From Methanoregula sp. PtaB.Bin085 (lineage in GTDB: Archaea; Halobacteriota; Methanomicrobia; Methanomicrobiales; Methanospirillaceae), in contig NZ_MVQB01000016.1 in assembly GCF_002067035.1 (NCBI RefSeq), forward strand, positions 62,001-126,000: a DNA stretch of 64,000 bases, read 5' to 3'. This document shows, in pieces, positions 7,896 to 20,139 of the stretch; position 1 is the first letter of the stretch, and every line of letters starts with the position of its first letter. Position numbers and translations under genes: made by a program. Under the pieces are notes generated by a model. It was not told where the DNA came from. It made no database searches and worked only from the letters and a program-made list of their open reading frames with translations.

Positions 7896-8106
7896 TGTGA
7901 TTGGCTTATGTTGATATATTGAGGATAAATATTTGATGGTTGAATGTGAATTTTTTGTATACAGTCCCCGCACCCGGGAGCACGATGGCTGACGCATCGC
8001 AGGGCCGGAGATCATGATACGCCATTGCGAAGCGCGGAACTGAAAAGAATCACGTGCAACACTCATCGCAACCTTGAATGCTTCCCCTTTCTCATAGTAC
8101 ACTATT

Positions 8107-8154
8107 GGCGATGAAGTCCGCCATCAATTGCCCCTTCGGCTGATGACTTCTACC
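8107..8154 (+). promoter_or_regulatory. Fluoride riboswitch (crcB-type), copy 1
   Basis: The element matches the fluoride aptamer: GGCG, AUG, P1 strand AAGUC, CGCC pairing back to GGCG (pseudoknot), a joining segment with CAAUU, a P3 hairpin GCC-CCUUC-GGC, then conserved UGAU, P1 partner GACUU and CUACC. It ends 13 bases before the start codon of the downstream operon, with AGGTAG between, so control of translation start is likely. The internal ATG opens a 10-codon mini-ORF ending at the UGA of UGAUGA. Confidence 0.9.
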
Positions 8155-8167
8155 AGAATTCAGGTAG

Positions 8168-9055
8168 ATGATGCCGATGATCCCCTCACGGGAAACCACA
8201 ATCCGGTATATTCTGGAGCGGCGGTGCGAATCCGGCGGGTACTGCTTTTACCGGCTCGATGAGCCGAACGCCGGTGACACGTATTACGCGCTTGCAGCCC
8301 TCGCGATTCTTGATGCACGGCCTCATGAAGATGAAGCGACCCGACGGTATCTTCACGCATTCCAGCGCGGGGACAGTTCGTTCCCGAATGTCAATGTCGG
8401 TCATGCCGTGATCCGGAGCCTGGCCCTCCTTGGGGAACGACCGGCCATGGATCCGCGGGACTGGATCCTCAGCGCCATGGTACCCCCGGGGGATACGTCC
8501 CGGCCGGTCGAATCCTCGTCGCTCTTCGAGCCGTTGTACCATCTTACGGGGTTGTGCCGGCACCTGGGGATCGAAGTGCCCCCCGGCAAAAAGGACGAGT
8601 TGCTCAGGGCAATCCTCCGGTACCGCCATCCCGACGGCGGCTTCGGGGAGCCGTTTTCGACCATGATCGAGACCGCCCATGCGCTTTCTGTCCTTCAGGT
8701 TCTCGATCCGTCATCGCCCCAAAAAGAATCAGGAACCTTCCTTACACAATGCGAGGACCCGGAGTACGGTTTCCTGTCCGTACCAGGTGCCCGGCCCGCG
8801 TTCCTCGAACACATCCATGCCGGAATTCTTGCCTGTTCCCTGACCGGGTACCCCTCGCCAGCGTTCGGGCGCTGCAGGGAATTCATCGTGAAGTGCATCC
8901 GTGAGAATGGCGGGTATTGCCGGTCAGTCTTCGGGGGATCGGCAACGCTGGAGAATACCTGGCTTGCCGTGACGGCGATGAAGATGATGGATGATCTGGA
9001 CCGGGGCGTGGCAGTGAATCTCGCCCGGAAACCTGCGGAACGGTGCTGCGACTGA
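8168..9055 (+). CDS. Prenyltransferase/terpene-cyclase-like alpha-alpha-barrel repeat protein, first gene of a fluoride-riboswitch operon
   Basis: The 295-residue protein consists of repeats of the PFTB/squalene-cyclase type, each with a Gly-Gly turn followed by an aromatic-rich helix: SGGYCFYRLDEPNAGDTYYALAAL, DGGFGE..TMIETAHALSVLQ and GGYCRSVFGG..LENTWLAVTAM. This fold is shared by protein prenyltransferase beta subunits and terpene cyclases, and also by noncatalytic relatives. The DxDD motif of squalene-hopene cyclase is not seen, so a catalytic role is unproven. The ATG at 8168 follows AGGTAG. The gene is followed after 8 bases by a zinc-ribbon protein and then a winged-helix protein, and a fluoride riboswitch precedes all three, which implies induction by fluoride. 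Confidence 0.75.
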   Translation: MMPMIPSRETTIRYILERRCESGGYCFYRLDEPNAGDTYYALAALAILDARPHEDEATRRYLHAFQRGDSSFPNVNVGHAVIRSLALLGERPAMDPRDWILSAMVPPGDTSRPVESSSLFEPLYHLTGLCRHLGIEVPPGKKDELLRAILRYRHPDGGFGEPFSTMIETAHALSVLQVLDPSSPQKESGTFLTQCEDPEYGFLSVPGARPAFLEHIHAGILACSLTGYPSPAFGRCREFIVKCIRENGGYCRSVFGGSATLENTWLAVTAMKMMDDLDRGVAVNLARKPAERCCD

Positions 9056-9063
9056 GGTGCCGG

Positions 9064-9459
9064 ATGAGCACAACGTTCTTCTGCCCGTTCTGCGGCATAT
9101 CCGGCCAGGAGGCCGGCGAAGTCTGTACCAGGTGCGGGAAGTCGCTTGATTCCTGGAAAGAACATCCTTTCGAGGAACGATTGCTCCTCACCCTCCGGCA
9201 TCCGATCACGGAACAGCGGATGCTGGCGATCCGGATCCTCGGCCAGCGGAGATACGAACGGGCCGTCCCCTTCTTTGCCGAAATGATCGCGGCGGGGCAG
9301 GATGTGTATACCCTGCGTGAAATTGTTTCGGCACTTGCACGGATCAACTCTCCGGAGAGCCGGGCGCTTGCAGACCGGCTCGGGAAGCATCCTTCTCCGG
9401 TTGTCCGGGAAGCCTGTGACCGCGCCGGAGTGGGGTCCGGAGAAGGAGGAGCACGATGA
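9064..9459 (+). CDS. Zinc-ribbon plus HEAT-like repeat protein
   Basis: The 131-residue protein opens with a two-pair zinc ribbon (FFCPFCG at about 6-12 and CTRCGKS at about 22-28). Helical repeats of HEAT type follow (QRMLAIRILGQRRYERAVPFFAEMI and TLREIVSALARINSPES). Such repeats usually mediate protein contacts. The start at 9064 has GAGGTG 4 bases upstream, overlapping the stop region of the previous gene. Its 3' end overlaps the next gene by four bases (ATGA), so the three genes form one translationally coupled operon under the riboswitch. Function unknown. Confidence 0.75.
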   Translation: MSTTFFCPFCGISGQEAGEVCTRCGKSLDSWKEHPFEERLLLTLRHPITEQRMLAIRILGQRRYERAVPFFAEMIAAGQDVYTLREIVSALARINSPESRALADRLGKHPSPVVREACDRAGVGSGEGGAR

Positions 9460-10076
9460 AATCGCCGGTCAAACCGAAACTCATGCGGATCCTTCTCGAT
9501 GGCGGGCCGCACCGGGAGATCGATCTTGCGACCGGGGTTGGTTTCACCAGGATCGTGACAATCCGGAAACATATCGACTCTTTTGAGCGGGCCCGTTTTA
9601 TTCTGCGGAAACGCGACGGGGAATCCGGCTGGATATGCCAGCTGAACCTCTCCCGCGATGCCGTGCTGAAGATCTACGGCTACCCGGAGTTCGTGCTTCT
9701 CCGCCCGGAGATCCGTGAACAATCCTGGTTCTCCCCGATGTTTACCGGGAATTATTCGTTCCTTCCGGATCCGCTTCCTGAAATGCTCCGCAGGATGATT
9801 GTGCAGTCCCACACGTTCTTTGAGACCATTTCCCGGTATGATACGCCGGAAAAACTCCGGGAAACCTTCGGGCCAGCCCTCCTCCTGAACCGTCTCGCCG
9901 GGGTGGAGGACCCGCTCTTCAATGACCGGTATCTCCTGTACCAGATCTTTGTTCACGCGGTCATCCGCGATATCGGGCACGGGGGCCTGGGCAGCGGGTT
10001 TGCACAGCTCCTCGACGAGAGCCAGGAATCGCTGAAAGCACAGTTCGAAAAGGCCGGCAGCCCGGATGGCAGTTGA
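9456..10076 (+). CDS. Putative winged-helix protein, third gene of the riboswitch operon
   Basis: The 206-residue protein begins with a helix-turn-helix-like segment (LMRILLDGGPHREIDLATGVGFTRIVTIRKHIDSF, residues about 8-45) followed by FERARFILRKR, which looks like a winged helix with its wing. The remainder is helical with no recognised domain. Overlap with the preceding gene (ATGA) indicates coupling. It may regulate the operon or be a nucleic-acid-binding partner of the zinc-ribbon/HEAT protein; neither can be shown from sequence. Confidence 0.65.
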   Translation: MKSPVKPKLMRILLDGGPHREIDLATGVGFTRIVTIRKHIDSFERARFILRKRDGESGWICQLNLSRDAVLKIYGYPEFVLLRPEIREQSWFSPMFTGNYSFLPDPLPEMLRRMIVQSHTFFETISRYDTPEKLRETFGPALLLNRLAGVEDPLFNDRYLLYQIFVHAVIRDIGHGGLGSGFAQLLDESQESLKAQFEKAGSPDGS

Positions 10077-10152
10077 CGGCGGACCTCATCGCCCGTATAC
10101 AAGAACTACGGGTGAAGGATGATTTATTGGTATTGTAAAAAAGGGGCCTTTT

Positions 10153-11802
10153 TCAGCCGTTCCGCAGCACCGCACCCTTATCCGCCTGGCTGACCAGCGC
10201 TGCATACCGGGCAAGGACACCGGTCACTGTTTTTTTCCGCAGTTTGGTCTCCTCCCGGCGTTTTTTGAGGATCGTTGGCGGAACAAGCAGATCCACGCTG
10301 TCGGCATACAGGTCGATCTGGATCATGTCGCCTTCCTTCACGAACCCGATCGGGCCTCCTGCTGCTGCTTCCGGTGCCACGTGACCGATGCACGGCCCCC
10401 GCGTGCCGCCCGAGAACCGCCCGTCCGTGATCAGGGCGACCCGGGTATACCCCTGCCCCATCAGTGCAGACGTTGGGGAGAGCATCTCCGGCATCCCGGG
10501 AGCACCCTTCGGCCCTTCGTACCGGATGACAATGACGTCGCCTTCGCGGATCTCCCGCTTCAGGATGGCACGCATGGCCTCCTGCTCGCCGTTGAAGACC
10601 CGGGCGGGACCCTTGTGTTTCCACATGGTATCGTCCACGGCACCGCACTTGATCACCGCCCCGTCCGGTGCAAGGGAACCCCGGAGTATTTTGAGGCCGC
10701 CGGCTTCGTGTACCGGCGCGTCAAGCCGGGTAATGACCCGCTCGTCCTTCACCGGGTGCTCGCGGGCTATGGCTTTCACCTTCTTCCCGGAAACCGTGAT
10801 GGTATTGTCCAGCGATTTCACGAGCCTGTTCATAACCGCCGGGACGCCGCCGGCATGGAAGAGAGCCTCCATGGAGTGCGGGCCGGCAGGCTGCATGTGG
10901 CAGAGGTGCGGTGTTGAACGGGCGATATCGCGGAACGTATCAAGCGTGACCGGGACCTCTGCCTCCTGCGCAACTGCCATGAGATGGAGCACCGTGTTGG
11001 TGGAGCCGCCGAGCGCCATGTCCACCCTGATGGCATTGGCAAAACTCTGCGGTGTGAGGATCTGCCGGGGCAGGATCTGTTCCTGAACGAGCGGCACGAT
11101 CCGTTCCCCTGTTGCGCGGGCAAGCCGGAGTTTTTCCGCGTGGACGGCCGGCGTTGCTGCGCAGCCGGGAAGGGACATGCCCAGCGCCTCGGTCATGCAC
11201 GCCATGGTGTTCGCCGTATACAGTCCCTGGCACGACCCGCAGCCGGGCATGGCTGCACATTCGAGCGTGCACAGCTCCTTCTCTGTCATCTTCCCGCCGG
11301 CATGCCGGCCAACACCCTCAAACACATCGATGAGCGAGAGTTCTTTGCCGTCAAGGTGGCCGGAGAGCATCGGCCCGCCGGTGATGACGATGCTGGGAAT
11401 ATTGAGCCGGGCTGCCGCCATGAGCATCCCGGGGATGATCTTGTCGCAGGTGCCGACACAGACCAGCCCGTCGAAGCAGTGGGCGTTGGCCATCAGCTCG
11501 ATGGAGTCCGCGATATTCTCGCGGGACGGGAGGGCGTTGCGCATCCCCTCGTGCCCCATCGCGATCCCGTCGCATATCCCGATGACCCCGAACTCGAACG
11601 GGACGCCGCCCGCTGCCGTGATGCCTTCCCGCACTTTCTGTGCGAGCGTGCGCAGGTGGACGTGGCCCGGCACGATATCGCTCCACGCATTGGCAATCCC
11701 GATGAACGGCAGGTCCATCTCGCGGTCGGTGACACCGAGCGACCGCAGCAGCGAACGGTTGGGCGCCCGCTGGTTCCCTTTTTTTACTTCATCGCTTCGC
11801 AT
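10153..11802 (-). CDS. ilvD: Dihydroxy-acid dehydratase
   Basis: IlvD dehydrates 2,3-dihydroxy acids in valine, leucine and isoleucine synthesis using an iron-sulfur cluster and Mg2+. The 549-residue protein has the family's cluster cysteines in VCVGTCDKI and [16 protein letters not shown], the conserved [13 protein letters not shown] near the N-terminus, and the [15 protein letters not shown] region near the C-terminus. The start is the ATG at 11802 (MRSDEVKKG); upstream in-frame ATGs lie in the leader. It is divergent from glnA, with both promoters in a 270-base spacer. Confidence 0.95.
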
Positions 11803-11918
11803 ATCACAACGATGTTGAACCGGCATGGTCATAATATGAATGATTGGCATGAATGGCAATAACACAAGAATTAAATATCATTTGTTGGAAATATACTTCT
11901 CGCAAAACCTACATGCAC

Positions 11919-11967
11919 GGCGATGAAGTCCGCCGCATTCCCGCCGCTCAGGCTGATGACTTCTACC
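11919..11967 (+). promoter_or_regulatory. Fluoride riboswitch (crcB-type), copy 2, glnA leader
   Basis: It shows GGCG-AUG-AAGUC-CGCC with pseudoknot complementarity, a P3 hairpin GCC-GCUCA-GGC, UGAU, then GACUU-CUACC. The joining segment (GCAUUCCC) lacks the AAC seen in most other copies. A TATA-like AAATATAC (11889-11896) lies 23-30 bases upstream, so the aptamer begins almost at the transcript's 5' end. The glnA start is 109 bases downstream. The aptamer's own ATG (11923) is in frame with glnA without an intervening stop, which can mislead gene callers. Confidence 0.88.
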
Positions 11968-12075
11968 ACACTGCGGAATATCCGGGTCCGGCAAACCGGG
12001 GGAAGATCGTCTGCTGACACATCCCGTGTCTCCTTCCATTGTTCCGGCCCTTTCATCCGCTTCCAGAGGTGTCCC

Positions 12076-13404
12076 ATGCCAACTGCCGATGTTACCAAGA
12101 TGCTCGAACGGATCAGGAAAGATGATGTGAAATTTGTCCGGCTCCAGTTCACCGATGTACTGGGCATGCCCAAGAATGCAGCAATCCCGGTCGCCCAGGC
12201 CGAGAAGTCATTGACCGAGGGGACATGGTTCGACGGGTCTTCCATTGAGGGATTCACCCGGATCGAGGAATCCGACATGCTCCTCAAGGCCGACCCGGCT
12301 TCGTACGCCGTCCTTCCCTGGCGCCCGGAAGAAGGAAAGGTTGCCCGCTTCATGTGCGATGTCTATACCTACGGCAACAAGCCGTTCGAGGGCGATCCCC
12401 GGTATGTCCTGAAACGGATGATGGCCGAGGCCGCAAAGTCCGGGTACACGTATTACACGGGTCCCGAGCTCGAGTTTTTCCTGTTCAATCTTGTCAATGG
12501 AAAACCATCAACGGAGTTCTCGGACACCGGAGCGTATTTCGATCTCGCACCGAACGATGCGTCCGAGAACGTCCGGCGCGAGATCGTTCTTTCCCTGACA
12601 AAGATGGGTTTCGAGATCGAGATGTCCCACCACGAGGTTGCAGCAAGCCAGCACGAGATCAACTTCAAGTACACGGATGCCGTCACGACGGCCGACCGTG
12701 TGATCACGCAGAAGTTCGCAACCAAGGCAATCGCTCTCAAGTACGGCCTCCATGCATCCTTCATGGCAAAGCCGATCGCCGGGATCAACGGCAGCGGCAT
12801 GCATACCCACGCCTCCCTTTCAAAGAACGGGAAGAACGCGTTCTTCGATGCAAACGGCGAGAAGGGCCTTTCGGATACGGCTCTCTATTACATCGGCGGC
12901 ATCCTCAAACACGCTAAAGCTATCACGCGCGTCGCGAACCCGACCATCAACTCCTACAAACGCCTCGTCCCCGGCTATGAGGCCCCGTGCTATATCTCGT
13001 GGAGCGCCACCAACCGCTCGGCCCTGATCCGCGTTCCCGCGGCACGAGGAAACGGGACCCGTGCGGAATTCCGCAGCCCGGACCCGATGTGCAACCCGTA
13101 CCTCACATTTGCCTGCATGCTTGCCGCAGGTCTCGACGGGATCAGGAACAAGATTATGCCCCCGGACAGCACCGACCGCAATATTTACCACCTCAGCGAT
13201 AAAGAGCGCAAGAAGCTGAAGATCGAGATGCTCCCCGGCAGCCTCGCCGAGTCCCACCATGAGCTTCTCAGGGACAAGGTCATCTGCGATGCCCTCGGGC
13301 CGCACATCGTCGACACCCTGACAAACATTGCTGTTGCCGAAACCGATGCATTCCGGCTCGCGGTCCACCCGTGGGAGATCGACCGGTACCTGGCAACCTA
13401 CTGA
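12076..13404 (+). CDS. glnA: Glutamine synthetase type I
   Basis: GlnA makes glutamine from glutamate and ammonia with ATP and is the main ammonia-assimilating enzyme. The 442-residue protein has the N-terminal FTDVLGMPKN and WFDGSSIEGF regions and the metal-binding GPELEFFLF. NGSGMHTHASL follows, as do the ATP/glutamate residues of NRSALIRVPA and the EFRSPDP signature. The start at 12076 (MPTADVTKML) has AGAGGTG just upstream; the frame can be read back to 11923 only by translating the riboswitch. It is a Mg/Mn-dependent phosphoryl-transfer enzyme and so a plausible fluoride target, which may explain the aptamer in its leader. No adenylylation-type Tyr motif was noticed. Confidence 0.96.
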   Translation: MPTADVTKMLERIRKDDVKFVRLQFTDVLGMPKNAAIPVAQAEKSLTEGTWFDGSSIEGFTRIEESDMLLKADPASYAVLPWRPEEGKVARFMCDVYTYGNKPFEGDPRYVLKRMMAEAAKSGYTYYTGPELEFFLFNLVNGKPSTEFSDTGAYFDLAPNDASENVRREIVLSLTKMGFEIEMSHHEVAASQHEINFKYTDAVTTADRVITQKFATKAIALKYGLHASFMAKPIAGINGSGMHTHASLSKNGKNAFFDANGEKGLSDTALYYIGGILKHAKAITRVANPTINSYKRLVPGYEAPCYISWSATNRSALIRVPAARGNGTRAEFRSPDPMCNPYLTFACMLAAGLDGIRNKIMPPDSTDRNIYHLSDKERKKLKIEMLPGSLAESHHELLRDKVICDALGPHIVDTLTNIAVAETDAFRLAVHPWEIDRYLATY

Positions 13405-13596
13405 TCTCTTTTTGCGGTATGACTGGGAAGCGATGAAGGTATCTGCTGACATTCCGTTTTCAAATCATCGGTTCCCATGACCGTATTGCCGGAATCCCGG
13501 CGACGGTCAGCGCACCGGTATGATGGTTTGGTCATGGATAGAAAGCGAAATACATATCTCATGATGCCGGAAATTACTGTTCATCAGAAATAATCC

Positions 13597-13644
13597 GGCG
13601 ATGAAGTCCGCCTTAACTGCCGTTTACGGCTGATGACTTCTGCC
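13597..13644 (+). promoter_or_regulatory. Fluoride riboswitch (crcB-type), copy 3, cofE leader
   Basis: GGCG-AUG-AAGUC-CGCC is followed by the joining segment UUAACU, a P3 hairpin GCCG-UUUA-CGGC, UGAU, and GACUU-CUGCC. This is the copy closest to the canonical crystal-structure aptamer. A TATA-like AAATACATATC lies at about 13549-13559. The cofE start is about 170 bases further down. An internal 10-codon mini-ORF ends at the UGA of UGAUGA. Confidence 0.92.
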
Positions 13645-13816
13645 ACGAACCGTATCATCATCCTCGCGGAATGGAGCGGAAGAACGTTTGTGTCGGGGAT
13701 CCCGGACCGGTTTCCCGCTCTCTTCCAGCCTGTCGGGGATACGCTCGTGGCATGCAATCCTTTGCGCCGAACCCGGATGAAGGATGGAACAGCATTGAAC
13801 AGGCAGCACGATCGTT

Positions 13817-14578
13817 ATGAAGCTCACCATAGAACCGATTGAAGATCTCCCGCTGATCCATGCGGGAGATGACCTCCCTGCACTGATTGCCGGACGCGTT
13901 GCTCTTGACGATGGAGATATCGTGACCATCGCGTCATCGGTGTACTCGAAGGCGAAGGGGCATACCCGGCGGCTTGCCGACATAACACCCACGCCCCGGG
14001 CGGTACGGATCAGCAAGATGACCGGGGAAGACCCCCGGTTCCTCCAGTCCATCCTCGATGCCTCGGTTGATGTTCTGATCGAATTCCCGTTCATCCTTTC
14101 GGAAGTTGCAGGCGGCCATATCGGTGTCCGGGCCGGCGTGGACCAGAGCAACATCGAGGATGAGATGGTGATCCTCCTGCCCCCGGATCCAATGGCTGCG
14201 GCAGCGGAGGTCCGCGACGCTCTGAAGAAGATCACCGGCAGGGATGTTGGCGTCATCATCACCGACACCTGCGGGCGCGCGTTCCGCCGGGGCCAGACCG
14301 GCAATGCCATTGGCTGGAGCGGAATTTTTGCCATCCGGGACTTCCGGGGCGACACGGACCTCTTCGGCCACGTCCTGAAGATCACCGAGGAAGCCGTTGT
14401 CGATGAGATTGCCGGCATTGCCAACTTCGTCATGGGTGAGAGTAACAACGGCGTTCCGGCCGTGGTGGTGAAAGGGTGCGAGAAATGGACCGGGCACGAC
14501 GACCTGTTCTTCAGCAGGAAGGAGGATTTCATCCGGCGGGCGCTGGCAGTCCCGGCACGGCCGAAGAAGAACACATAA
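13817..14578 (+). CDS. cofE: Coenzyme F420-0:L-glutamate ligase / F420-1 gamma-glutamyl ligase
   Basis: CofE adds glutamates to F420-0 in a GTP- and divalent-metal-dependent reaction, the last steps of coenzyme F420 synthesis. The 253-residue length is typical of archaeal CofE. It has the N-terminal GDDLPALIAG and DDGDIVTIASSVYSKAKG region, SNIEDEMVILLPPDP, and DTCGRAFRRGQTGNAIGWSG, all characteristic. The start at 13817 (MKLTIEPIEDL) fits family alignments, although the ribosome-binding site is weak. A fluoride riboswitch lies in the leader. F420 is the central hydride carrier of methanogenesis, so fluoride control of this step would be notable. Confidence 0.94.
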   Translation: MKLTIEPIEDLPLIHAGDDLPALIAGRVALDDGDIVTIASSVYSKAKGHTRRLADITPTPRAVRISKMTGEDPRFLQSILDASVDVLIEFPFILSEVAGGHIGVRAGVDQSNIEDEMVILLPPDPMAAAAEVRDALKKITGRDVGVIITDTCGRAFRRGQTGNAIGWSGIFAIRDFRGDTDLFGHVLKITEEAVVDEIAGIANFVMGESNNGVPAVVVKGCEKWTGHDDLFFSRKEDFIRRALAVPARPKKNT

Positions 14579-14610
14579 GGAACCCGTGAGCAGGAGTATG
14601 GGCGGATTTC

Positions 14611-14856
14611 ATGCCCGGCCACCAAAATAATGTGTTGATCGGAGGATTAGCCGGCGTTCTTGTACTTATTGCTGCCATTCTTGCAGTGAATGCTGTCATC
14701 CCGCCCCCGGATCATTCTGCCGGTCCTGTGCCGGGGGTATCAGGGCAGGATACCCGGGGCAATGTGATCCTGGGTCTGGCGATTCTCGGTATCCTAAGTA
14801 CGTTCGGCCTGATCGCGTATTATTACACGAACATCAGTTTCGGCGCGGGAAAATAG
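14611..14856 (+). CDS. Small membrane protein with two TM helices
   Basis: The 81-residue protein has two hydrophobic helices (about 8-28 and 50-70) joined by a Pro/Ser/Gly-rich loop. It lies 32 bases after cofE on the same strand and could share its fluoride-controlled transcript. I recognise no family. GGGCGG precedes the ATG at 14611. Confidence 0.55.
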   Translation: MPGHQNNVLIGGLAGVLVLIAAILAVNAVIPPPDHSAGPVPGVSGQDTRGNVILGLAILGILSTFGLIAYYYTNISFGAGK

Positions 14857-14967
14857 GACAGAACCCGGGAACAACCCACGGAAAAAAACCGGGATTTTTG
14901 CTGGTTTTAGACAAAAGACCTGCCTCCACCGCAAGGAGTTTACATTCATCCATCACAGCAGTATGAA

Positions 14968-15017
14968 GGCGATGAAGTCCGCCTCCAACTGCACTGTCCG
15001 CGACTAATGACTTCTGT
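14968..15017 (+). promoter_or_regulatory. Fluoride riboswitch (crcB-type), copy 4a
   Basis: GGCG-AUG-AAGUC-CGCC with joining UCCAACU, a weaker P3 (probably GUC-CGC-GAC), then UAAUG, and GACUU-CUG. The UAAUG variant in place of UGAUG is allowed in the known consensus. TATA-like TTTACATT (14938-14945) lies about 25-30 bases upstream, placing the transcript start at the aptamer. A short ORF with a strong ribosome-binding site (GGAGGT) follows, then a second aptamer 147 bases downstream. Confidence 0.85.
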
Positions 15018-15046
15018 TCTCAAACTGCGGATGGAGGTTGAACGAC

Positions 15047-15169
15047 ATGAATCCTTTACCTGTTACTCTGGCGTGTGCCGGTGCGGTGACGGGTTTATGC
15101 GCGACCCTGCGTAAAAAGAACCTTCAAGTCAGATCCCGGCAAAGGAATACTACCAATCCGAACTGGTGA
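15047..15169 (+). CDS. Possible 40-residue membrane peptide between two fluoride riboswitches
   Basis: An ATG at 15047 follows GGAGGT with 7 bases of spacing, the best ribosome-binding site in this leader. The 40-codon frame has a hydrophobic stretch (LPVTLACAGAVTGLCATL) followed by a basic tail. Its stop codon TGA lies inside the GGTGATG of the second riboswitch, so translating ribosomes would run into that aptamer. It could be a real small protein or a leader peptide that tunes the downstream riboswitch. No homologue is known to me. Confidence 0.4.
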   Translation: MNPLPVTLACAGAVTGLCATLRKKNLQVRSRQRNTTNPNW

Positions 15170-15216
15170 TGGGGTTCCACCATGAACCGCTTTTTTCAAA
15201 AGCTGATGACTCCTGC
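15165..15216 (+). promoter_or_regulatory. Fluoride riboswitch (crcB-type), divergent copy 4b, antiporter leader
   Basis: This copy differs in sequence but keeps every helix. The pseudoknot is GGUG/CACC instead of GGCG/CGCC. P1 is GGGGUU pairing GACUCC instead of GAAGUC/GACUUC. P3 is a perfect GCUUUU-UUC-AAAAGC. Conserved UGAU follows P3 and the joining segment is AUGAACC. Because substitutions occur on both sides of the helices, pairing is supported by covariation within this window. It ends 17 bases before the GTG start of the antiporter gene. Confidence 0.88.
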
Positions 15217-15233
15217 AACATGCCGGTGATAGT

Positions 15234-16409
15234 GTGGAATCCGTCAGTGCAATTCCGCTCCTTATGGGGCTTTTGATCTTCTTTGCCAGCCTGATCTCGC
15301 TCCGGCTCGGGCTGTCTGTCGCTATTGTCGAAGTACTCCTGGGGGCGCTCATGGGCAACCTCGGTTTCGTCCACACGGAACCATGGATGCTCTACCTCGC
15401 CACCTTTGGCGGAATCATCCTCACGTTCCTTGCCGGAACCGAGATCGATACCGGCCTGATGCGGGAGAAATACCGTGAGAGTTTCCTTATGGGATTCTTC
15501 TCGTTCCTCTGCCCGTTCCTCCTGGTCTTCTGGTACACGTATTTCATCGACGGCTGGACCCTGCAGGCCGCTCTCATCGCCGGCACCGCCCTCTCGACAA
15601 CATCGCTTGCCGTGGTTTATTCCGTCCTTGTCGAGAGCAATCTCTCGCGCCACGAATTCGGGAAGATCATCATGGCCTCGACCTTTGTCACGGATATGCT
15701 GACTGCGATCGCCCTGAGCGTGCTCTTCCTGAAGCCAACGGTCTATACCCTGCTCTTCGTCGTCATCTCTGTCGCGGTTATTGTCATAACCATTCGCTAT
15801 TCCCACCTGCTCTTTGAGCACCCGATGATCCGGAACAAGGTCATCGAGCCGGAAGTGAAGTTCGTCTTCCTCCTGCTGCTCATCTTTATGTTCTTTGCGG
15901 GTCTTGGCGACGGGCAGGCTGTCCTTCCGGCATTCGTGCTCGGTCTTTTCATGGGTAAGACCTTCACGGCCGGACAGGGGTATGTCGAGATGGCCGGGAT
16001 GAAGGCGATGAAGATGAAGCTCCGTACCGTTGCCTACGTCATCATCACCCCGGTCTTCTTCATTGTCAGTGGGCTGAACGTCTCGGTTCCGCTCATCACG
16101 AGCGCCGCAGGCCTTTTTGCCATGCTCCTCATCCTGAAGCTGATCGGAAAGTTTGCCGGGGTCTATGAGCTCTCGAAACGGTACTGCCACAAGGCTGAGA
16201 TGTACACAACACTCCTCATGTCTACCGGCCTGACCTTCGGGACCATCGCCAGTGTCTTCGGGCTCCAGCAGGGATATATTACGCAGACCCAGTACTCGGT
16301 TCTGGTCGGTGTCGTGATAGCGACTGCCGTCATCCCGACCATCATTGCCGAGAAGTGGTTCCGGCCGGTCCATGCCGAGGATATGGGCGGGATGGAACCG
16401 ATCCGTTAG
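15234..16409 (+). CDS. CPA-type cation:proton antiporter (KefB/NapA-like) under fluoride-riboswitch control
   Basis: The 391-residue integral membrane protein has about twelve hydrophobic helices and the CPA2 pattern: LLGALMGNLGFVHTEP, GIILTFLAGTEIDTGLM, the ALIAGTALSTTSLAVVYSVL unwound-helix region and the FADGDGQ-like AGLGDGQAVLPAFVLGLFMG. It starts with GTG at 15234 with GGTGAT upstream; no in-frame ATG fits before the first helix. TrkA-type RCK domains are absent. Riboswitch-linked CPA relatives have been listed among fluoride-associated genes, so it may export fluoride or restore ion balance; its substrate cannot be read from sequence. Confidence 0.85.
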   Translation: MESVSAIPLLMGLLIFFASLISLRLGLSVAIVEVLLGALMGNLGFVHTEPWMLYLATFGGIILTFLAGTEIDTGLMREKYRESFLMGFFSFLCPFLLVFWYTYFIDGWTLQAALIAGTALSTTSLAVVYSVLVESNLSRHEFGKIIMASTFVTDMLTAIALSVLFLKPTVYTLLFVVISVAVIVITIRYSHLLFEHPMIRNKVIEPEVKFVFLLLLIFMFFAGLGDGQAVLPAFVLGLFMGKTFTAGQGYVEMAGMKAMKMKLRTVAYVIITPVFFIVSGLNVSVPLITSAAGLFAMLLILKLIGKFAGVYELSKRYCHKAEMYTTLLMSTGLTFGTIASVFGLQQGYITQTQYSVLVGVVIATAVIPTIIAEKWFRPVHAEDMGGMEPIR

Positions 16410-16716
16410 AAGGAGTGGGGACAGTGCAACATGTTTTCCGGACAATGGTTCTCCAACAACCGGAGAACGTAATGGTATCGGCCATCGGGATACCTGAAGG
16501 ACGGATTGCAGACCTGCCGGAAGCGGCCGGGCCGGAGATCCGGGCCGGCGGGGATAGTGACCGGGCAACGGATATGGCACCGGCGGACACAGGGACGTAC
16601 GGGATGGCTGTTGTCCGGGATGTCCCGCGCCAGGTAAAATCCGGGCGGTAAGCAGGAATACCGTGCATCCTGCAGTATGTTATTGTCCCGGAACAGACAA
16701 TCACCATTAAGAATGC
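16410..16716 (+). other. Gap holding a possible 75-residue ORF (16424-16651)
   Basis: A GTG at 16424 has AGGAG 9 bases upstream and opens a hydrophilic 75-codon frame to 16651, fourteen bases after the antiporter stop. The product (MVLQQPENVMVSAIG... ending VPRQVKSGR) matches nothing I know, and long frames also exist on the other strand, so coding status is doubtful. The remaining DNA contains a TATA-like AGTATGTTATTG (about 16672-16684) that could serve the MFS transcript. Confidence 0.25.
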
Positions 16717-16764
16717 GGCGATGAAGTCCGCCGTCATCCGCCCTCCGGGGATGATGACTTCTGG
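16717..16764 (+). promoter_or_regulatory. Fluoride riboswitch (crcB-type), copy 5, MFS transporter leader
   Basis: GGCG-AUG-AAGUC-CGCC with pseudoknot complementarity, a P3 arm around CCC-UCC-GGG, then UGAUGACUUCUGG. The last base before UGAU is A rather than C and the joining segment lacks AAC, so P3 is less canonical. The aptamer ends just 4 bases before the AGGAG ribosome-binding site of the transporter, which strongly suggests translational control. Confidence 0.85.
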
Positions 16765-16778
16765 TGCAGGAGTTAGTC

Positions 16779-17969
16779 ATGGAAAAAGAAGGGTGGCTCA
16801 ACCGGACCGTCCTTGGCGCCGGCATTACGAGTTTCTTCTCTGACCTCGGCCATGAAGCGGTGACGGTCCTGCTCCCGTCATTCCTGATCGCGCTCGGGGC
16901 ACCGGTGTACGCGCTCGGTATCATCGAGGGGATCAGCGACGGGGCATCGAGTTTCGTGAAATTGCTCTCCGGCTATCTCTCGGACAAGCTGGGGAAGCGG
17001 CGGGAATTCGCCCTTGCAGGGTATGTCGCAACCGGCATCTTCCCGGCAATCGTGGCAGTCGCAGCAGCCTGGCCGGTTGTCCTCCTCGGGAGAGTCGTCG
17101 GCTGGATGGGCCGGGGAACCCGTGGCCCTCCCCGGGATGCAATCCTCGCAAAGTCGGTGGAGGAGAAGGATCTCGGGAAGGCATTCGGGTTCCACCGGGC
17201 GGGGGACACGCTCGGCGCGATTGCCGGGCCGGCCGTGGCATTCCTGCTGGTCGCGTACATGGGGACACGCGAGATCTTCTGGCTGACCCTGATCCCGGGA
17301 TTTCTCGCCATACTGACGTTCTGGTTCTTCGTGCAGGAAAAAGATCCGGCACCTTCCGGAGACACGCGTACGCTGGTCACGTCGCTGAAGGAACTGCCGG
17401 CCGGCTTCAGGAAATACCTTTCCGCGATCCTTGTCTTCGGGATTGCGGATTTCTCCCACACCCTGCTGATCGCATTTGCCGTGGTCATGCTCACCCCTTC
17501 GCTCGGGTTTGGGCAGGCCACGGCAGCAGGGGCGATCCTGTACATGATCCGGAACATTGTCTATGCCGCTGCGTGTTACCCGTTCGGGGCCCTGGGGGAC
17601 AGGTTCGGCAGGAAGAAACTGCTCGTGGCCGGGTATGTGATCGCCGTCCTGACCTTCGCCGGGTTCGTGCTTGCCCCCCCGGATCCCATTGTCTATGGAA
17701 TCCTCTTCGCGTTGTGCGGGATATTCATCGCTGCCGAGGATACGCTGGAGAGCGCTGTTGCCGGGGAGATGATTGAGGAGAAGCAGCGGGGTCTCGGATT
17801 CGGGGCGCTCGCGACCATGAATGGTATCGGGGATCTCTGCTCGAGCATTCTCATCGGGTTCATCTGGGCGTTCGTTGGCTATAGTGCCGGGTTCACGTTC
17901 GCGGCGATTGTAGCTGCGGCAGGCACGATCATGATGGCATTCTGGGCGAACGGGCACGGGCATGCATGA
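16779..17969 (+). CDS. MFS transporter under fluoride-riboswitch control
   Basis: The 396-residue protein has twelve predicted helices and the MFS loop motif GYLSDKLGKRREFALAGY between helices 2 and 3, repeated as GALGDRFGRKKLLVAGY in the second half. Helix 1 contains FFSDLGHEAVTVLLPSFL, typical of a subfamily often annotated as multidrug or metal efflux. The ATG at 16779 has AGGAG at an ideal distance; a GTG 15 bases earlier lies inside the aptamer's tail. Substrate unknown; fluoride or a fluoride-metal complex is an attractive but untested guess. Confidence 0.85.
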   Translation: MEKEGWLNRTVLGAGITSFFSDLGHEAVTVLLPSFLIALGAPVYALGIIEGISDGASSFVKLLSGYLSDKLGKRREFALAGYVATGIFPAIVAVAAAWPVVLLGRVVGWMGRGTRGPPRDAILAKSVEEKDLGKAFGFHRAGDTLGAIAGPAVAFLLVAYMGTREIFWLTLIPGFLAILTFWFFVQEKDPAPSGDTRTLVTSLKELPAGFRKYLSAILVFGIADFSHTLLIAFAVVMLTPSLGFGQATAAGAILYMIRNIVYAAACYPFGALGDRFGRKKLLVAGYVIAVLTFAGFVLAPPDPIVYGILFALCGIFIAAEDTLESAVAGEMIEEKQRGLGFGALATMNGIGDLCSSILIGFIWAFVGYSAGFTFAAIVAAAGTIMMAFWANGHGHA

Positions 17970-18286
17970 GAAAACGATGGGAAATGCATTGTTTCTCCGC
18001 GCTGAGAGAAAACCCAAAGGGGAGCGCACATTCCGGATGATCGGGGGCGAACCGCTGCAGACAGGTTTTGCCAGGGATCTCTACAACCAGATATTCCTCG
18101 GGATACCAACAGGTTCAGCACCGGCACAAGAACAGACAACCGGAGTATCCCGGTAAAAAATTCCCGGGCGGTCCGGTTTGCCAACCCCTTTTTTCACGGT
18201 CCGGGCATGAACGGTACCCTGAACTCAGAGAACCACCGGACGGGAGAACGTCACCGGTCTTCCCCTGCAACGAAAAAAGGGAGCCT
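17970..18286. other. Intergenic between convergent MFS and thermosome genes
   Basis: Immediately after the MFS stop lies an imperfect hairpin (GAGAAAACGATG ... CATTGTTTCTC, about 17967-17998) that may protect or end the transcript. A 64-codon frame beginning at 17962 overlaps the MFS end but has no ribosome-binding site and is not convincing. Nothing else was recognised. Confidence 0.35.
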
Positions 18287-19948
18287 TCAGTACCCGCCCA
18301 TACCGGGTGGCATCCCGCCCATGCCCCCCATCCCGCCCGGCGGCATTCCGCCGGCACCGGGCGCCGGTTCAGGGGCCTTTGCCGATGCAACGATGTCGTC
18401 GATACGAAGGATCATCACGGCCGCTTCTGCCGCGCTGGAGATGGCCTGGGTCTTCACCCGCAGCGGTTCCACGACTCCGGCCCTGAGCATATCGGCAGGT
18501 TTCCCGGTATCGGCATTGATGCCGAAGGTCTTCTTCCCGGCCTCGTGGGCCGCCCGCATGTCGACAAGGAGGTCGATGGGATCGTGACCGGCGTTCTCGG
18601 CCAGGGTCCGGGGAATGATCTCCATCGCGGCTGCAAATGCCTCGATGGCGAGCTGGGCACGGCCACCGACCGTTGCCGCATACTCGCGAAGCCGGAGCGA
18701 GAGCTCGGTCTCGGGGGCCCCGCCTCCGGGAACGATCTTCTTACCTTCAATCACAACGGAAACCACCATGAGGGCATCGTGGACGGCCCGTTCGAGCTCA
18801 TCGACAACATGTTCGGTTCCGCCGCGGATGACGATGGAGACCGCTTTCGGGTTTTTGCACTTTGATACATAGATCATCTCGTCGCCGGAGATCTTGCGCT
18901 CCTCCACGAGGCCGGCAGTACCGAGATCCTGTGCGGTTATTGCGTCGATGCTGTTGACGATGGTGGCACCCGTTGCCCGGGCAAGGTTCTCGCAGTCGCT
19001 CTTCTTGACCCGGCGGACGGCGAGGATACCAGCCTTTGCAAGGAAGTGCTGGGCAACGTCGTCAATTCCTTTCTGGCAGAAGATGACGCTGGCGCCGCTC
19101 GCAACCACCTTGTCCACCATTGCCCGGACCATGTGCTCCTCTTCGTCGAGGAACGCCTGCGCCTGCCCGGGGGTCGAGATCCGGATGGTTGCGGAAACCT
19201 CGGTCTTCTTAAATTCCAGCGCGGCATTGAGGACGAGGATCCGGGCATTCTTCACCGTCTTCGGCATAGCCGGGTGGGCCCGTTCCTTGTCGATGACCAT
19301 GCCCTCGATGAGCTCGGTGTCGTCAACCGAGGCGCCGGCCTTCTTCTCCACGTTGATGTGGGCAAGATCGGCCTTCCCGTCCGGATCGGTGACCGATACA
19401 ACGGCTTTCACGACCACATCGCAGAGCCAGTCTTTCTGGACCTCCGCGTTCTTGCCGGTCAGGGCAGTACCGGCGATATTTTTCAGCATCGCCGTGTCGG
19501 TGGGTTTTACCGCGATGGCGATCCCTCCGAGTATCTCAAGCGATTTCTCCGCCGCCATCCGGTACCCCTCTGCTATGACCGTCGGGTGCACCTTCTGCGC
19601 GATCAGTCCTTCGGCATTCTTCAGGAGTTCCCCGGCGATGACCACCGCGGATGTCGTACCGTCGCCGACTTCGTTGTCCTGGGTCTTTGCGATCTCGACC
19701 ATCATCTTTGCCGCAGGGTGCTCGATATCCATCTCCTTGAGGATGGTGACACCATCGTTGGTTATCGTGATGTCGCCCATGCTGTCGATAAGCATCTTGT
19801 CCATGCCTTTCGGGCCGAGCGTTGACCGTACGGCCGATGCAACGGCTTTTGCGGCCGCGAAATTGTTGTTCCGGGCTTCCTCTTCCCGGCTCCGGGTTGC
19901 TCCTTCCTTGAGGATCAGTATGGGTTGTCCCCCGAGTTGTTGTGCCAT
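18287..19948 (-). CDS. thsA: Thermosome subunit (group II chaperonin)
   Basis: The thermosome is the archaeal ATP-driven protein-folding chamber. This 553-residue subunit has the ATP-site motifs [10 protein letters not shown] (about 44-53), NDGVT (64-68) and GDGTT (95-99), GGGAPE near residue 400, and the Gly-Met-rich tail ending [10 protein letters not shown]. The start ATG at 19948 has GAGGT six bases upstream. Its leader carries a fluoride riboswitch, which is unexpected for a chaperonin: heat shock is the usual cue. Assignment to a particular subunit letter is not possible from one gene. Confidence 0.96.
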
Positions 19949-19994
19949 GATTTACCTCATCTGATAATAATTGGTAATCCCTGTATCTGCAAAA

Positions 19995-20043
19995 CAGAAG
20001 TCATCAGTCGGGATTCCGGCGGTTGACGGCGGACTTCATCGCC
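19995..20043 (-). promoter_or_regulatory. Fluoride riboswitch (crcB-type), copy 6, thermosome leader
   Basis: On the minus strand the sequence reads GGCG-AUG-AAGUC-CGCC, joining GUCAACC, a P3 hairpin GCCGG-AAUC-CCGAC with one C-A mismatch, UGAU, then GACUU-CUG. A TATA-like CTTTTATTTG (about 20078-20087) sits upstream. The aptamer ends 46 bases before the start codon of the thermosome gene. It is the only copy on the minus strand and, like the others, it follows the orientation of its gene. Confidence 0.9.
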
Positions 20044-20139
20044 ACGTGACTGAATATCGTTGACTGTCGTTCAAATAAAAGGTTTCTTTCACAGGATGTC
20101 AGAGGATTTCCGGCCGGGAATACCCTCCTCAACCCTGTA

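Follow-up and report, generated by a model that had tools for sequence, protein, structure and literature searches.

Can an operon of three genes, none of them from a familiar fluoride-resistance family, encode an undescribed part of the fluoride response? A locus in the archaeon Methanoregula sp. PtaB.Bin085 (genome of 2.9 Mb, 98% complete) raises the question. We analyzed a window of 64,000 nucleotides around it, meaning the whole stretch from 62,001 to 126,000 of contig NZ_MVQB01000016.1 (G000:C16:62001-126000), to which all unprefixed coordinates below refer.

Results

Three tightly packed genes follow a complete fluoride aptamer. T1 (8168-9055, +) encodes an alpha-alpha toroid protein of up to 295 aa (PF00432, E 1.9e-12), with its true start probably at 8177 (MIPSRETTI), which fits the relatives better than 8168. 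T2 (9064-9459, +) encodes a 131-aa protein with an N-terminal zinc ribbon (CPFC...CTRC) and HEAT repeats (HEAT_2, E 2.3e-8), and T3 (9456-10076, +) a 206-aa protein whose structure model has a winged-helix N-terminus and a helical C-terminal domain. An 8-base gap separates the T1 stop from the T2 start and T2 and T3 share an ATGA overlap, so the coordinates bear out the tight coupling proposed in a sequence-only reading of this DNA. The aptamer that this reading placed in front of the trio is a full-length match to RF01734 at 8098-8159 (+), scoring 51.8 bits (gathering score 34 bits; E 1.9e-11 for a search of all 64,000 nucleotides) and covering all 64 model positions (1-64). The match has no flagged non-standard pair, and the GAUGAAGUC loop and GACUUC 3' strand are present. 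Roughly 8-22 nt separate it from the first start, depending on which aptamer end and which start are chosen, a range that accommodates the 13 bases first reported.

The trio lies in an island of fluoride aptamers. Searching the whole genome with RF01734 returned seven aptamers above threshold, all within about 12 kb of the window (8098-20052). Besides that of the trio, they comprise one upstream of glutamine synthetase (11910-11972, +, 41.4 bits; gene named from its ORF reading), one upstream of cofE, for F420-0:gamma-glutamyl ligase (13588-13649, +, 56.3 bits; CofE PF01996, E 1.2e-73), a tandem pair (14959-15023 and 15156-15222, +, 34.2 and 59.1 bits) leading into a CPA2-type antiporter gene (15234-16409), one for an MFS transporter gene (16708-16770, +, 35.5 bits; gene 16764-17969, MFS_1 E 2e-44), and one (19988-20052, -, 44.0 bits) for a minus-strand gene (18287-19948) that we take, from reading its ORF, to be a thermosome. 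Background density is low, aptamer-bearing genomes having mostly 1-8 per about 2-4 Mb. An eighth, partial aptamer, sub-threshold at 25 bits (10058-10093, -), overlaps the T3 end downstream of ilvD and looks like a remnant. The gene after cofE (14611-14856) encodes an 81-aa protein, probably a membrane protein, that is conserved in two relatives (L052, L065).

A candidate expression platform would link the aptamer to T1 translation. Downstream of GACUUC, UCUACC (8149-8154) can pair with GGUAGA (8163-8168) around an N8 loop to form a hairpin at 8149-8168 (+). The 5' arm shares bases with the aptamer's pseudoknot 3' strand, and the T1 Shine-Dalgarno region lies within the 3' arm. Taken alone the hairpin is modest (shuffle p 0.07), as it is in most of the window's clade (about 0.05-0.12). 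The stem is kept while loop length and sequence vary in eight related leaders (L074, L075, L076, L077, L078, L079, L054, L057), with a weaker form in L055, and in a bacterial leader (L106) the stem reaches 12 bp and spans a strong Shine-Dalgarno sequence. The start region of the window's MFS leader is folded into a long hairpin. No Shine-Dalgarno-sequestering hairpin was found in the L080-L084 group or in several other leaders, and the expression platform therefore varies. One bacterial T1 leader (L099:5871-5960) has a terminator-like hairpin and then seven T in place of the sequestering stem. Because each hairpin case is modest and several leaders hold nothing similar, a translational ON switch of T1 is likely rather than shown; it is inferred without binding or expression data.

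The arrangement recurs in other genomes. T1, T2 and T3 are contiguous behind an aptamer in six of them (L052, L053/L074, L054, L055, L056/L076, L077), so the absence of co-occurrence, which had been named in advance as the result that would refute the idea, did not materialize. Few genomes encode a T3 homologue (13 of 199 in the order, Methanoregula sp. PtaB.Bin085 included), and in nine other genomes of the order T3 stands behind a same-strand aptamer. Among these arrangements, Methanolinea-like genomes (L058, L060, L087) have T3 behind the aptamer with neither T1 nor T2 between. A scan of genome contigs with T3 as the only query gave no match. Two further genomes (G154, G177) encode a T3-like protein 1.1 kb from an aptamer; we rejected both as aptamer-linked and left them out of the count, since the proteins have no winged helix and opposite-strand crcB-type genes come before the nearest same-strand aptamer. 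In two relatives (L052:6809-7618, L077:2502-3263) a CofE-related paralogue overlaps the T3 end, forming a fourth operon gene.

T1 reaches far beyond the trio. A profile scan of 84,980 species genomes yielded 37 loci, from methanogens, Syntrophales, Syntrophus, other Deltaproteobacteria, further bacteria and one Hodarchaeota. In Rfam scans, 32 of the loci have an aptamer upstream of T1 and on its strand, directly (within 67 nt) in 20 and about 1.5-3.1 kb off in 12, where dynamin, enolase or antiporter genes mostly intervene. Three of the five loci without one end at contig ends (L094, L095, L103), and L108 and L110 are real exceptions. L110 holds the T1 homologue of the Hodarchaeota genome (L110:5965-6828, 35% identity), where no fluoride aptamer was detected.

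Two further samples agree. Across 393 genomes of the window's phylum, a sample that overlaps the 37 loci, an aptamer accompanies 27 of the 30 testable best-scoring T1 copies, counting a sub-threshold aptamer of 26.5 bits (G014); no aptamer was found near the copies in L133, L134 and L136. The phylum of a Syntrophales genome gave 11 strong copies, ten with an upstream aptamer (three of these already counted above) and the last starting 197 bases from a contig end. Homologues in that phylum with weaker scores (E 1e-10 to 1e-16) have an aptamer in the flanking 1.5 kb or so, on either side, at 4 of 19 loci. The sole aptamer detected in one Syntrophales genome (G509) precedes a dynamin-T1 pair. T1 is thus strongly supported as a fluoride-regulon member in archaea and bacteria. 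Together with the trio and T3 counts, this co-occurrence supports the suggestion that the operon contributes to the fluoride response in a way not yet described, in the absence of phenotype data.

T1 keeps company with known regulon genes and one newcomer. Pfam identifies the genes that recur at T1 loci as those for a dynamin-like GTPase (PF00350, E 5e-30; about 600 aa), enolase, CrcB, DUF190, paired MutS_V, NUDIX, MFS and CPA antiporters; CrcB, mutS, enolase and Na+/H+ antiporters are established members of fluoride-riboswitch regulons (PMC2864571, PMC11139923). In a tally of 51 T1 copies, a few of them incomplete or redundant, 28 have dynamin in their locus and 21 have enolase, and the gene directly after T1 is T2 in 9 and enolase in 10. 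The dynamin-like GTPase adjoins T1 under fluoride aptamers in both archaea and bacteria (L085, L087, L091, L092, L096, L097, L106, L107). We came across no publication that places it in the fluoride regulon, and it is absent from a 2024 review (PMC11139923). A search of the Methanoregula sp. PtaB.Bin085 genome, run without a positive control, did not find it, so a T1-dynamin partnership cannot be universal. At two other loci (L062:11336-12505, L063:1468-2509) crcB/DUF190-type genes on the plus strand end right next to a minus-strand aptamer, which itself comes after an enolase gene on the minus strand.

The literature we could search is silent on T1. The same 2024 review (PMC11139923) does not mention prenyl proteins, and no open-access publication joins 'fluoride riboswitch' with 'prenyltransferase', a mention in the supplement of Baker et al. 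2012 not being excluded. Nor did we find T1 described as a fluoride-regulon protein in the open-access literature, a scope that leaves out Baker et al. 2012.

Regulon membership alone could make T1 a target of fluoride rather than a protector. On that reading T1 is a housekeeping enzyme that fluoride inhibits and that the cell overproduces as fluoride rises, as is known for enolase under fluoride riboswitches (PMC11139923). The island gives it some footing, with aptamers on likely fluoride-sensitive metal or phosphoryl-transfer enzymes (glutamine synthetase, CofE) and on the thermosome. We nevertheless consider it unlikely: most sampled genomes do without T1, any match being found in only 70 of the 393 from the window's phylum and many of those being weak, and strong copies stand nearly always behind aptamers.

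T1 has the fold of a prenyltransferase subunit without its catalytic zinc site. Its model is an alpha-alpha toroid (pLDDT 90, pTM 0.89) whose best PDB matches are RabGGTase and GGTase-III beta subunits (E 2e-7 to 1e-6, TM up to 0.72, 6j7f_B). Profile alignment to RabGGTase beta pairs the zinc ligands D238 and C240 with E166 and A168. Among 29 homologues, the C240 column has Cys in one, and the D238 column has Glu in 23 and Asp in 6. The third ligand, His290, lies outside the T1 alignment coverage; we judge its position to fall at the invariant E212. The only matches to a PPTA-repeat alpha subunit in the genome are below the Pfam cut-off. As far as the missing zinc-ligand cysteine and the missing alpha subunit can decide, T1 is not a prenyltransferase. 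Its first description as prenyltransferase-like therefore stands for the fold and fails for the active site.

These tests also weigh on the idea that T1 actively prenylates proteins or cyclizes terpenes, with the dynamin-like GTPase or membrane lipids as examples of what it might modify during fluoride stress. The PF00432 match, the RabGGTase beta resemblance and the frequency of dynamin as a neighbour all speak for it. Yet the zinc-ligand cysteine and an alpha subunit at the Pfam cut-off are lacking as described, and both specific versions were rejected: the dynamins have no conserved C-terminal cysteine to prenylate, and the DxDD motif of squalene-hopene and terpene cyclases occurs in none of the 29 homologues. 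We regard such an activity as quite improbable.

What T1 does conserve points to a different site. R16, C18, C24, E30, P31, D35, T36, E212, G246, G247, R250, G255 and a few more residues are invariant in all 29 homologues. In the model, the acidic residues D35, E166, E212 and E260 stand at the starts of successive helices, which suggests a site at the mouth of the cavity; this is inferred from the fold, as the model coordinates were not inspected.

The partner proteins match their first descriptions. T2 was called a zinc-ribbon/HEAT protein, and the HEAT repeats are significant; the ribbon falls below the Pfam cut-off and its four cysteines are invariant in nine homologues. T3, called winged-helix-like, has no Pfam match, and local structure matches to a winged helix superpose at 2.2-3.2 A over about 65 residues, with global E-values that are not significant. 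It carries conserved SHTFF and RDI..GGLGEGF motifs. We could assign no family name to T3, for want of any Pfam, NCBIfam or significant PDB match.

The seven aptamers and a partial one in 12 kb might suggest that the aptamer has a local role in regulation and that the trio was merely carried along as aptamers multiplied in the island. But T1 and T3 are each found independently, with an aptamer directly in front, among unrelated neighbouring genes, T1 doing so in two domains, and this reading is close to refuted.

Known exporters are not in evidence. Searches of the 98% complete genome detected neither CrcB nor CLC, and the same searches gave matches in most control genomes; the missing 2% could conceal either. 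With neither detected, the riboswitch-controlled MFS (16764-17969) or CPA2 (15234-16409) transporter may be the exporter, or a substitute acting in pH homeostasis.

Discussion

We consider it reasonably probable that the trio is a fluoride-induced resistance operon under an ON switch, with T1 as core effector, T2 as adaptor and T3 as regulator. Fluoride and Mg2+ would stabilize the aptamer pseudoknot, which would keep the aptamer 3' strand off the Shine-Dalgarno region and turn T1 translation on; T2 and T3 would follow by translational coupling to T1. T1, a soluble toroid protein and not an exporter, would be the core effector. Its near-invariant R16, C18, C24, E30, D35, E166, E212, R250 and E260 probably line the cavity mouth and bind a ligand or metal. 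T1 would limit the harm that fluoride does inside the cell and would act on the fluoride-sensitive processes on which its partners enolase and the dynamin-like GTPase also act; T2 may be an adaptor, and T3 may regulate by binding DNA. The aptamer, the gene order, T1 regulon membership in two domains and the folds come directly from computation. The ON direction, the cavity site and the roles of T2 and T3 are inferences, unsupported as yet by phenotype or binding data.

A more specific proposal can be put forward only tentatively. T1 would be an undescribed, cross-domain fluoride-resistance effector with a conserved acidic/cysteine cavity, protecting a fluoride-sensitive process together with the dynamin-like GTPase, enolase or T2/T3, in cells that perhaps lack known exporters. 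The underlying finding is real and wider than first claimed: in archaea and in bacteria alike, T1 belongs to the fluoride regulon, with its biochemical role still open. A new exporter might also be sought in this genome, which has seven fluoride switches and in which neither CrcB nor CLC was detected.

Comparison with known systems

The locus is both typical and atypical of fluoride riboswitch (crcB RNA motif, RF01734) regulons. A full aptamer occupies the trio's 5' leader, and related loci hold CrcB, enolase, MutS and a Na+/H+ antiporter, as expected (PMC2864571, PMC11139923). Unlike those regulons, this one includes a toroid, zinc-ribbon-HEAT and winged-helix trio that neither source names, and packs seven aptamers into 12 kb with a candidate platform that would sequester the Shine-Dalgarno sequence.

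The proteins likewise resemble known families only in part. T1 shares the alpha-alpha toroid of protein prenyltransferase beta subunits (RabGGTase, FTase; PF00432), but has lost the zinc-ligand cysteine, has no alpha subunit at cut-off and bears a signature of its own, RRCxxGGYC..LDEPNxxDT. The T3 N-terminal winged helix superposes locally on SmtB (62 columns, 2.2 A), as in ArsR/MarR-type regulators, whereas its motif-bearing C-terminal helical domain sets it apart and no PDB match reaches E <= 0.001.

The fluoride defences known so far consist chiefly of export, homeostasis of pH and ions, and raised production of the enzymes that fluoride inhibits. The trio shares fluoride-riboswitch control with the resistance factors Fluc/CrcB and CLC-F; unlike them, T1-T3 are not predicted transporters. 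In methanogens and in bacteria, Syntrophales among them, the T1 family goes together with the fluoride riboswitch, and by sequence it belongs to none of the known defences, which points to a defence step not yet described.
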